From Candidatus Palauibacter scopulicola (lineage in GTDB: Bacteria > Gemmatimonadota > Gemmatimonadetes > Palauibacterales > Palauibacteraceae): a DNA stretch of 53,602 nt. Every line of letters starts with the position of its first letter. Within the stretch, counting starts at the first letter, position 1. The DNA lies in the NCBI RefSeq assembly GCF_947581915.1, contig NZ_CANPWG010000023.1, positions 1 to 53,602 of the forward strand, written 5' to 3'. Below, one piece after another: positions 29,531-32,545 of the stretch. The translations under genes were made by a program, and so were the position numbers. The notes beneath the pieces were generated by a model. That model saw only the letters and a program-made list of their open reading frames with translations, did no database searches and was not told where the DNA came from.

Positions 29531-29545
29531 CCGAGCGCTGCTCGG
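29531..29545. terminator. Hairpin after the carboxypeptidase-regulatory protein gene
   Basis: CCGAGC at 29531-29536 pairs with GCTCGG at 29540-29545 across the loop GCT, three bases after the stop codon of the carboxypeptidase-regulatory-domain protein. No T-run follows, so this is a modest terminator candidate separating it from the methyltransferase gene. Confidence 0.4.
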
Positions 29546-29595
29546 CGGTGGACGAAGCATTACGTTGAGACGGTCCACCGTGCAGACGCATCACG

Positions 29596-30546
29596 ATGAA
29601 GGGTGAAAGGGCCGGGATGACGGTAGGCGTCAACGAGATCATGTCCGGAGCCGAGTCCTCGCTCAGCCTGAAACGGCAGGCCAAGATCGAGGCTTGGCGG
29701 GACGGAGCGGCGCCGGAACGGACGGAACACACGCTGTATCTTGGTGACGCCCGAGACATGCCCGAGATCCGGGAACCGATTCACCTCGTCGTCACCTCAC
29801 CGCCCTACTTCAACCTCATCGACTATGACGGTGGCCGCGCCGACGACGGCCAGCTCGGCGGCATCGACGACTACGAAGCGTTCCTGGACGAACTCGACCG
29901 CGTGTGGCGGCGGTGCTACGACCTCCTCACGCCGGGCGGCCGGCTGTGCGTGGTCGTGGGGAGCGTCTGCATTTCACGCCGGGCCGGAGGCCGCCATCAC
30001 GTTCTCCCGCTCCCGGCCGACATCTCGGTTCGCGCGCGGCGGATCGGGTTCGACTACCTCACGCCGATCCGCTGGTACAAGATCGCCAACATGGCGACGG
30101 AGGCGAGCGGGGTCGGGTTCCTGGGGAAACCGTACGAACCCAACGCGATCGTGAAGAACGATGTCGAGACCATCCTGATGCTGCGGAAGCCCGGGAGCTA
30201 CCGGAAGCCGACGGCGGCACAGCGTGCGCTCAGCCTCATCGAACCGGACGACCACCGGCGCTGGTTCCGGTCGATCTGGGACGACATCCGCGGTGAAGCC
30301 CGCAAACGAGGCCATCCGGCGCCTTTTCCCGTGGAACTGGCTTCCCGCCTCGTCCAGATGTTCAGCTTCGTGGGGGACACCGTCCTCGATCCGTTCTGGG
30401 GAACGGGCACGACGACAGCCGCCGCCATGCTCACCGCCCGTTCGAGCATCGGGTTCGAGATCGAACCGAGGTATGTCGAGATCGGACGGGGCAGGCTGGA
30501 ACAGCTCGACGCCTTGCAAGTGCCGGCAACGATTGCCGTTGCGTGA
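29596..30546 (+). CDS. DNA methyltransferase (beta-class, TSPPY type)
   Basis: Protein of 316 residues. TSPPY (67-71) is catalytic motif IV and DPFWGTGTTTAAA (265-277) is the SAM-binding motif I. Motif IV precedes motif I, as in the beta class. Between them lies a target-recognition stretch with RWYKIANMATEASGVGFLGKPYEPNAIVKND. It transfers methyl to an exocyclic amino group of adenine (N6) or cytosine (N4); TSPPY is more often the N4-cytosine form. ATG 29617 (seven codons later) has AAAGGG upstream and may be the true start. The DUF4268 gene follows 39 bases on; the two are likely a unit. Confidence 0.88.
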   Translation: MKGERAGMTVGVNEIMSGAESSLSLKRQAKIEAWRDGAAPERTEHTLYLGDARDMPEIREPIHLVVTSPPYFNLIDYDGGRADDGQLGGIDDYEAFLDELDRVWRRCYDLLTPGGRLCVVVGSVCISRRAGGRHHVLPLPADISVRARRIGFDYLTPIRWYKIANMATEASGVGFLGKPYEPNAIVKNDVETILMLRKPGSYRKPTAAQRALSLIEPDDHRRWFRSIWDDIRGEARKRGHPAPFPVELASRLVQMFSFVGDTVLDPFWGTGTTTAAAMLTARSSIGFEIEPRYVEIGRGRLEQLDALQVPATIAVA

Positions 30547-30585
30547 ACACTGCATCGTTCCGATCGGAAACAAGGGAGCCACCAC

Positions 30586-31545
30586 ATGCCAGCCATGCCG
30601 CTTGCACGACTTGAGGCCGTGGATCCTCGAACTTTCTGGAAGAGCGAGGCCACTGACTTCACGCCTTGGCTGGCCGCGGAGGAGAACCTTGAGCTGCTCG
30701 GCGACGCGATAGGGCTGGAACTTCAGCTTGAGGCGCAAGAGAAGGACGTCGGCCCCTTCCGAGCCGATCTGCTCTGCAAGAGTACGGTCGATGACTCGTG
30801 GGTTCTGGTCGAGAACCAACTCGAACGGACGGACCATACTCACCTGGGGCAACTGCTGACCTACGCAGCCGGTCTCCAAGCCGTGACCATAGTATGGATC
30901 GCCCACCGATTCACCGATGAACATCGGGCGGCCCTCGATTGGCTGAACGAAGTCACGGGAGCTCCGATCAATTTCTTCGGGTTGGAGATCGAATTGTGGA
31001 AGATCGGTGAGTCTCCTCTCGCGCCGAAGTTCAACGTCGTGTCGAAACCCAACGAATGGATCAAGCCGCCCCCGCCGCCTCCAGACCCAACGCCCCACCA
31101 GCAGCTACAGCAGCAGTTCTGGGAGGCGTTCCGCAACCACGTCGCCGATGAAGGGGCTGAGTTCAAGACGACGAAGGCTCATCCGCAGAACTGGATGAGT
31201 ATCGCGATCGGCCGCGTGGGGTTTCAGCTCTCAGCCATCGCCTCTTCCTGGAATTCCGAAGACGAGTCATGGGATACGGGAGAACTGCGCGCCGAGTTCG
31301 TGGCGAACGGGCGTGATGCGGCGGGTTATCACGACCGGGTTCACGCTCTTAGAGAGGAGATTGAGACGCAGCTTGGTGAATCCCTGGTTTGGCACAACCC
31401 GGAGGATACGAAGAGCTGGAAGGTCTATCTCCAGAAGACAGCAGATATTTCGGACCGTTCCGCGTGGCCGGAGCAACACGAGTGGCTGCGAACGCACTTG
31501 AACGGACTCCACCGGGTTTTTCGGCCGATTGTCAGGAGCCTTTGA
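30586..31545 (+). CDS. DUF4268 protein with PD-(D/E)XK nuclease-like N-terminal domain
   Basis: Protein of 319 residues. The N-terminal half reads EKDVGPFRADLLC (Asp61), WVLVENQ (Glu76, Gln78) and HLGQLLTYAAG (86-96), the D-ExQ-Q arrangement of PD-(D/E)XK nuclease-like folds. The C-terminal half, from about residue 180 (HQQLQQQFWEAFRNHVADEG), matches DUF4268. A KPPPPPPDPTP linker joins the halves. AAGGGAG lies just upstream of the ATG. The gene follows the TSPPY methyltransferase on the same strand; the pair may form a restriction-modification-like unit, although nuclease activity is inferred from fold motifs only. No helicase or specificity subunit is nearby. Confidence 0.8.
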   Translation: MPAMPLARLEAVDPRTFWKSEATDFTPWLAAEENLELLGDAIGLELQLEAQEKDVGPFRADLLCKSTVDDSWVLVENQLERTDHTHLGQLLTYAAGLQAVTIVWIAHRFTDEHRAALDWLNEVTGAPINFFGLEIELWKIGESPLAPKFNVVSKPNEWIKPPPPPPDPTPHQQLQQQFWEAFRNHVADEGAEFKTTKAHPQNWMSIAIGRVGFQLSAIASSWNSEDESWDTGELRAEFVANGRDAAGYHDRVHALREEIETQLGESLVWHNPEDTKSWKVYLQKTADISDRSAWPEQHEWLRTHLNGLHRVFRPIVRSL

Positions 31546-31702
31546 CGGCCGGTTCTCTGCGCTTTACTCGGATTGCGATGCGATGTCGATCTCGCGGAGC
31601 GTGGCCGGCCGCGCCCCGTGGGCCGGTGCCTGCGGGTGGGCGGTACCCAGCGGTGGCTGTCTGCGGGACCGCGGCGGGCCTGCCACGAGTCCGCGCCGAC
31701 CG

Positions 31703-32545
31703 CTAACGCCGGCCGGAGGCCTGGGCTCTCAGGGCGGCGACGCGCTCGTCGGTGGGGGGGTGGGTCGTGAAGAGGGACGTGAGGCCGCGGCGGCGTCCGG
31801 CGAAGGGGTTGACGATCGCGAGGGAGGCGCCGGCGGGATTCACGTCCATCGGGATGCGGCGGGCGCCGGACTCCAGGCGCTTCAGCGCGCCGGCCAGACC
31901 CATGGGGTCGCCCGTGATCTCGCCGCCGGTGCGGTCGGCCTGAAACTCGTTGCGGCGGCTGATCGCCATCTGGATGATGACGGCGGCGAGCGGCGCGACG
32001 ATGGCCATGACCAGCATGCCCAGAGGGTTGTCGCCGTCGTCACGGCCCCCGCCGAAGATGAACCCCCAGCGGGCGATCGAGGCGATCATCGCGATCGCGC
32101 CCGCCATCGTCGCCGCGACCGTGCCGACCAGCATGTGCCGGTGCTTGATGTGGGCGAGTTCGTGCGCGATGACTCCGTCGAGTTCACGGGCCGGCAGCGC
32201 CCGCAGGATGCCCTGCGTGAAGCAGACCACGGCGTGCTCCGGGTTGCGGCCCGTGGCGAACGCGTTCGGCTGCGGCTGCGGCGAGATGGCCACGACCGGC
32301 GCCGGCAGGCCCGCCCGCTTCCTCAGCCGCTCCACCCGGTCGTAGAGGTCCGGCGCCTGCGACCGGTCCACGACCTGGGCCCGGTACATGCGCAGGACCA
32401 CCCGGTCGCTGAACCAGTACATCCCGAAGTTCATGGCCCCCGAGAGCACGAGGAACAGGACCGCGCCCTGCTGCCCGAACATGATCTGGCCGGCGAACAC
32501 CAGGAGAACCGTCAGGCCCACCATGAGGCCGAAAACTCTGAACAT
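31703..32545 (-). CDS. htpX: Membrane M48 zinc peptidase HtpX
   Basis: Protein of 280 residues. Two N-terminal membrane helices (MFRVFGLMVGLTVLLVFAG and GAVLFLVLSGAMNFGMYWF) precede the active site HELAH (128-132). SRRNEFQADRTGGE supplies the third zinc ligand, and two further helices lie between them. It degrades misfolded membrane proteins as part of heat-shock envelope quality control. The C-terminal TTHPPTDERVAALR is typical of the family. It is not in an obvious operon: the DUF4268 gene converges from the left and the Dph6-like gene lies about 100 bases upstream. Confidence 0.93.
   Translation of the reverse strand: MFRVFGLMVGLTVLLVFAGQIMFGQQGAVLFLVLSGAMNFGMYWFSDRVVLRMYRAQVVDRSQAPDLYDRVERLRKRAGLPAPVVAISPQPQPNAFATGRNPEHAVVCFTQGILRALPARELDGVIAHELAHIKHRHMLVGTVAATMAGAIAMIASIARWGFIFGGGRDDGDNPLGMLVMAIVAPLAAVIIQMAISRRNEFQADRTGGEITGDPMGLAGALKRLESGARRIPMDVNPAGASLAIVNPFAGRRRGLTSLFTTHPPTDERVAALRAQASGRR

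Follow-up and report, generated by a model that had tools for sequence, protein, structure and literature searches.

PDC-S11 is listed in PADLOC-DB as a single-gene phage defence candidate (PDLC04911-04914); the entry carries no mechanism, and neither functional work on the protein nor a mechanism for it was found in the literature searched. It is thus already known as a named candidate, usually alone or inside other restriction systems. Two further kinds of described system come close to the locus reported here: Type II restriction-modification systems, with their paired methyltransferase (M) and restriction enzyme (R) genes, and Type IV systems of the GmrSD type. Among the latter, the TgvAB pair sits within a Type I operon of Vibrio (PMC11411939), and the DUF4268 domain has been reported in fusion with GmrSD enzymes (PMC4619093).

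The locus lies within a 53,602-nucleotide stretch of DNA from Candidatus Palauibacter scopulicola (the window; genome G000), in which the following features were delimited:

29596..30546, + strand: beta-class (TSPPY) DNA methyltransferase, 316 aa, ATG start, Type II-like, 2zie family
30586..31545, + strand: PDC-S11/DUF4268 protein, 319 aa, ATG start, assigned by PADLOC, PF14088, an AlphaFold2 model, and invariant residues
About residues 11-156 of PDC-S11: predicted N-terminal PD-(D/E)XK domain, with D61, E76, and Q78
Residues 174-315 of PDC-S11: C-terminal DUF4268 (PF14088, E 6.8e-22)
29539..31718, no strand: whole insert relative to the empty site (homology to G148 ends at 29538 and restarts at 31719)
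30527..31713, no strand: segment differing from the sister species, in place of a 255-aa ORF (blastn against G259, G209, and G059; G+C)

The two genes lie where the earlier note had placed them, on one strand and 39 nt apart. Its assignment of the first to the beta class agrees with a match to N6_N4_Mtase (PF01555, E 5.8e-40) and with the position of TSPPY ahead of the DPFWGTGTT motif, the order typical of that class; the protein also matches PADLOC MTase_II (E 8e-52), and its closest solved structure is PDB 2zie (E 2.9e-93). As the note had also stated, no specificity subunit or helicase adjoins the pair in the window, and neither the HsdS nor the HsdR of a Type I restriction-modification system is present around it there. 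The layout had been called unrecognized, which overlooks that its nuclease half is an already named candidate: the PADLOC PDC-S11 profile matches the second protein at E 4.8e-110, with residues 5-318 aligned to positions 4-312 of 313.

Despite this full-length profile match, the PDC-S11 gene of the window differs from the PADLOC candidate in its setting, as it follows a beta-class methyltransferase, where the gene of a Type II restriction enzyme would otherwise stand. With Type II systems the locus shares the methyltransferase family, the site, and the layout, and its sisters carry M together with an ORF bearing a D-ExK motif; it departs from them in that the R gene is absent and PDC-S11 stands instead. 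The presence of an extra nuclease gene inside a restriction-modification operon recalls TgvAB, whereas PDC-S11 lacks the DUF262 and DUF1524 domains of GmrSD, DUF4268 being the sole domain found.

The genes flanking the insert are common to congeneric genomes, and both flanks are co-linear with the genus. In five congeners (G148, G395, G055, G053, and G292) the site is empty; 60 bp separate the two homology limits in G148, the insert limits are near-identical in the other empty-site genomes, and inspection of the insert junctions gave no clear target-site duplication. Three sister species (G259, G209, and G059) carry at the same site a methyltransferase 96-98% identical to that of the window. 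Homology between the window and these genomes, as determined by blastn, ends at 30527, in the last methyltransferase codons, and restarts at 31713-31714; between these limits the sister species contain a different sequence with a 255-aa ORF, the start of which overlaps the methyltransferase stop codon, and no PDC-S11 was found in any of the three. No relic of the 255-aa ORF was detected within the window, nor was the ORF found elsewhere in G000, whose assembly is 95.9% complete and could hold it in a gap. A further congener, G042, retains at this site no more than the N-terminal part of a related methyltransferase (L159:3592-3861), 67% identical over about 90 residues.

We consider it probable that PDC-S11, gained by horizontal transfer, has displaced the nuclease gene of a Type II restriction-modification locus here. 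A Type II module, comprising the beta-class methyltransferase and a 255-aa PD-(D/E)XK restriction enzyme, would have entered one chromosomal site in the genus, and a horizontally acquired PDC-S11 gene would later have taken the place of the restriction-enzyme gene in the window genome. The swap is supported by the combination of the same methyltransferase and the same site with a different downstream gene, and by the absence of the 255-aa ORF from G000. Horizontal gain is supported by base composition, the G+C content of the PDC-S11 gene (59.4%; 70.6% at third positions) lying below that of the methyltransferase (65.7%) and of the window (69%), and by its closest relatives, which occur in Pirellulaceae, Eisenbacteria, and other phyla (59%, 58%), the best full-length match within its own phylum being 48% identical. 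A phage origin of PDC-S11 was rejected, as phage records gave only four distant, partial matches. The literature searched held no precedent for exactly such a nuclease swap.

That the two genes have no functional link, with PDC-S11 lying by chance beside a methyltransferase left solitary by enzyme loss, or that their adjacency is an assembly chimera, appears improbable. The arrangement is found in one assembly only, and the methyltransferase remnant in G042 indicates that decay does happen at this site; however, both flanks are co-linear with the genus, one boundary falls within the methyltransferase's last codons, and PDC-S11 is generally enriched near Type I restriction genes.

The 255-aa ORF has no meaningful match in Pfam, NCBIfam, PADLOC, or PDB sequences. 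D69, E100, and K102, which form a D-ExK motif, are invariant in 8 of 8 sequences of this ORF, and its structural model (pLDDT 88.6) resembles the folds of NucC, BbvCI, EcoRI, NgoMIV, and SgrAI (Z about 6-8.6). The ORF accompanies the same methyltransferase family in G196 (66% and 62% identical), in G083, where the ORF is partial, and in G094, and relatives of both proteins lie within 5 kb of each other on a haloarchaeal plasmid (58% and 37%). It is likely the cognate restriction enzyme of the methyltransferase, and we infer that it was the ancestral partner. Because outgroups with the closest methyltransferases have the 255-aa ORF, its replacement by PDC-S11 is the simplest history, a direction read from few outgroups, one of them with the partial ORF.

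Members of this ORF family form a group of unannotated restriction-enzyme-like ORFs, without meaningful Pfam, NCBIfam, or PADLOC match, that occur beside three different kinds of methyltransferase. Distant relatives lie beside Dcm and Vsr genes on a Sinorhizobium plasmid and, as read from ORFs, in G176; others, likewise read from ORFs, adjoin an NPPY-type methyltransferase (G046, G029, and G040). Relatives of the window methyltransferase have, in addition, at least three more kinds of small partner ORF, of about 200, 231, and 273 aa, which probably represent other restriction enzymes; a DUF262-like gene comes after one kind, as it also does on a Paraburkholderia plasmid (L185). In the phylum, more distant relatives of the methyltransferase (L134, L136, L139, and L140) regularly have just ahead of them a conserved protein of about 240-280 aa, which we take to resemble DUF2461.

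L157:3589-4356; L156:2939-3706 (- strand); L158:4027-4794; L117:2447-3205; L190, L191, and L193-L195: members of the 255-aa ORF family
L118:2528-3223; L120:746-1360; L123:2433-3035 (- strand); L124:2445-3047 (- strand); L125:725-1339; L126; L132:677-1498: small partner ORFs

Comparison of the methyltransferase with its sister orthologues gave dN/dS values of 0.04-0.06, so the gene has been preserved over the span of that comparison; the ratio does not date the swap. The enzyme presumably still methylates DNA at a short motif, and would now do so without a restriction enzyme of its own.

The PD-(D/E)XK pattern that the earlier note had read in the N-terminal half of the DUF4268 protein is borne out by conservation: D61, E76, and Q78 are invariant in a set of 17 homologues and, together with N77, in 64 of 64. 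In the AlphaFold2 model (41 alignment rows; pLDDT 91.8, pTM 0.79), D61 and E76-N-Q78 fall on consecutive strands, and the predicted N-domain is a nuclease fold, as the note had proposed, nearest to NucS/EndoMS (2vld, 5gke; Z 10.6, rmsd 2.2-2.4 over 103-105 residues). Further fold matches include the restriction enzymes PaqCI, FokI, and BspD6I and the Shedu nuclease. Even with the 41-row profile, no sequence relatives of PDC-S11 were recovered from the PDB; NucS/EndoMS, though closest in fold, has no sequence match to PDC-S11 and carries another accessory domain. The NucS site is ExK where PDC-S11 has ExQ. Since ExQ replaces ExK in active enzymes such as BglII, nuclease activity of PDC-S11 is plausible, and its modeled fold, with acidic residues on adjacent strands, makes it a predicted nuclease of the PD-(D/E)XK superfamily. 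The model of the DUF4268 domain (window 31143-31530, residues 173-319) resembles YbjN and secretion-chaperone folds at Z about 8; this could faintly point to protein binding, but the match is too weak to support a conclusion.

The earlier note had envisaged a recurring minimal two-gene system, to be sought by a neighborhood survey of DUF4268 with TSPPY methyltransferases. We compared 80 homologous PDC-S11 loci from many phyla, drawn by similarity rather than at random and spanning up to 8 kb on each side, with mechanical gene calls in loci that lacked annotation. None of the 80 has a relative of the methyltransferase near PDC-S11. A profile built from 25 such methyltransferases found none among 500 neighboring ORFs, nor in the loci from the phylum, from plasmids, and from proviruses; across the 395 genomes of the phylum, a methyltransferase of the window type adjoins no other PDC-S11 locus, and 12 plasmid and provirus loci have no annotated methyltransferase adjacent. 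A conserved methyltransferase-DUF4268 operon is therefore rejected, and the pair shows the lack of genomic association that the note had named as grounds for refutation. Such a methyltransferase is also missing from the 25 commonest neighbor families listed, a list too short to reveal one isolated neighbor of this kind. What recurs beside the methyltransferase instead is the D-ExK ORF, in three sister species. The restriction-modification setting itself is upheld; in G000, no restriction enzyme that travels with the methyltransferase lies beside it, as the 255-aa ORF is absent and PDC-S11 does not travel with it. The two families do share a genome in 9 of the 395 phylum genomes as compared with 2.3 expected, but everywhere other than in the window they lie on different contigs or at a distance from each other; we read this co-occurrence as reflecting defence-rich genomes carrying many systems.

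These counts bear on whether PDC-S11 has become this methyltransferase's new restriction enzyme, cutting DNA without its mark in a working two-gene system. Its position 39 nt downstream of the methyltransferase, exactly where the old partner stood, would fit such a role, as would its predicted nuclease fold and conserved active site, the purifying selection on the methyltransferase, the several different downstream or upstream partners of the methyltransferase family, and the genome-level excess; cooperation between the two new neighbors could explain why the swap was retained. We nevertheless regard this as unlikely, given that no other PDC-S11 locus, among the 80 or in the phylum, is near such a methyltransferase. 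Most PDC-S11 genes outside Type I loci also have no common methyltransferase neighbor among the 25 commonest families listed, so the PDC-S11 family does not require one.

PDC-S11 is instead found repeatedly with Type I genes: of the 80 loci, 21 have HsdR no more than 4 kb away, and 28 have HsdR or HsdS. In many unrelated bacteria the gene sits between hsdS and hsdR inside Type I operons (L043, L089, L110, L038, L039, L075, and L108), and a single-operon order of S, PDC-S11, and R is frequent (e.g., L043, L089, and L110). Across 50 of the PDC-S11 genomes, with a background of 91 HsdR matches in 195 Mb, HsdR occurs that near PDC-S11 in 14 loci as compared with about 0.3 expected; the resulting enrichment of about 50-fold is approximate, since the observed genes were identified with a profile of ours and the background matches with Pfam HSDR_N. 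No clustering of this association in one branch of the PDC-S11 tree was observed, as the Type I label requires 22 changes, as compared with 22.7 for shuffled labels. Well-supported branches alone demand at least 11 of these changes, so entry into or exit from Type I loci has occurred many times in PDC-S11. Outside these loci its neighbors are mostly ordinary genes. By analogy with TgvAB, such neighborhoods are those of a self-sufficient gene carried as mobile cargo, from which both the repeated joining and leaving of Type I loci and the HsdR enrichment would be expected, as seen; PDC-S11 probably works on its own.

A possible reading, less favored than replacement, is that PDC-S11 is a modification-dependent (Type IV-like) nuclease that cuts modified phage DNA and complements restriction-modification loci, the methyltransferase being incidental. 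Its embedding in Type I operons parallels TgvAB (PMC11411939), and the fusion of DUF4268 to GmrSD enzymes (PMC4619093) points the same way; however, no modified-base reader domain was recognized in PDC-S11, and the fold match of its C-domain is weak. As a Type IV mode of action is compatible with the replacement history, our confidences in the two overlap. Under replacement, PDC-S11 would be a separate defence nuclease that cuts DNA autonomously, settles in restriction-modification loci, and possibly picks modified or otherwise foreign DNA.

For PDC-S11 as a family, the fold and the active site are now predicted, and its strong and recurrent association with restriction-modification operons makes its role directly testable. 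The genus offers a natural before/after pair, with one methyltransferase and one site but two unrelated nucleases, that lets one ask whether methyltransferases can adopt new nucleases. If PDC-S11 were indeed the new restriction enzyme, the locus would be a two-gene system born by nuclease swap, with PDC-S11 restrained by resident methylation.
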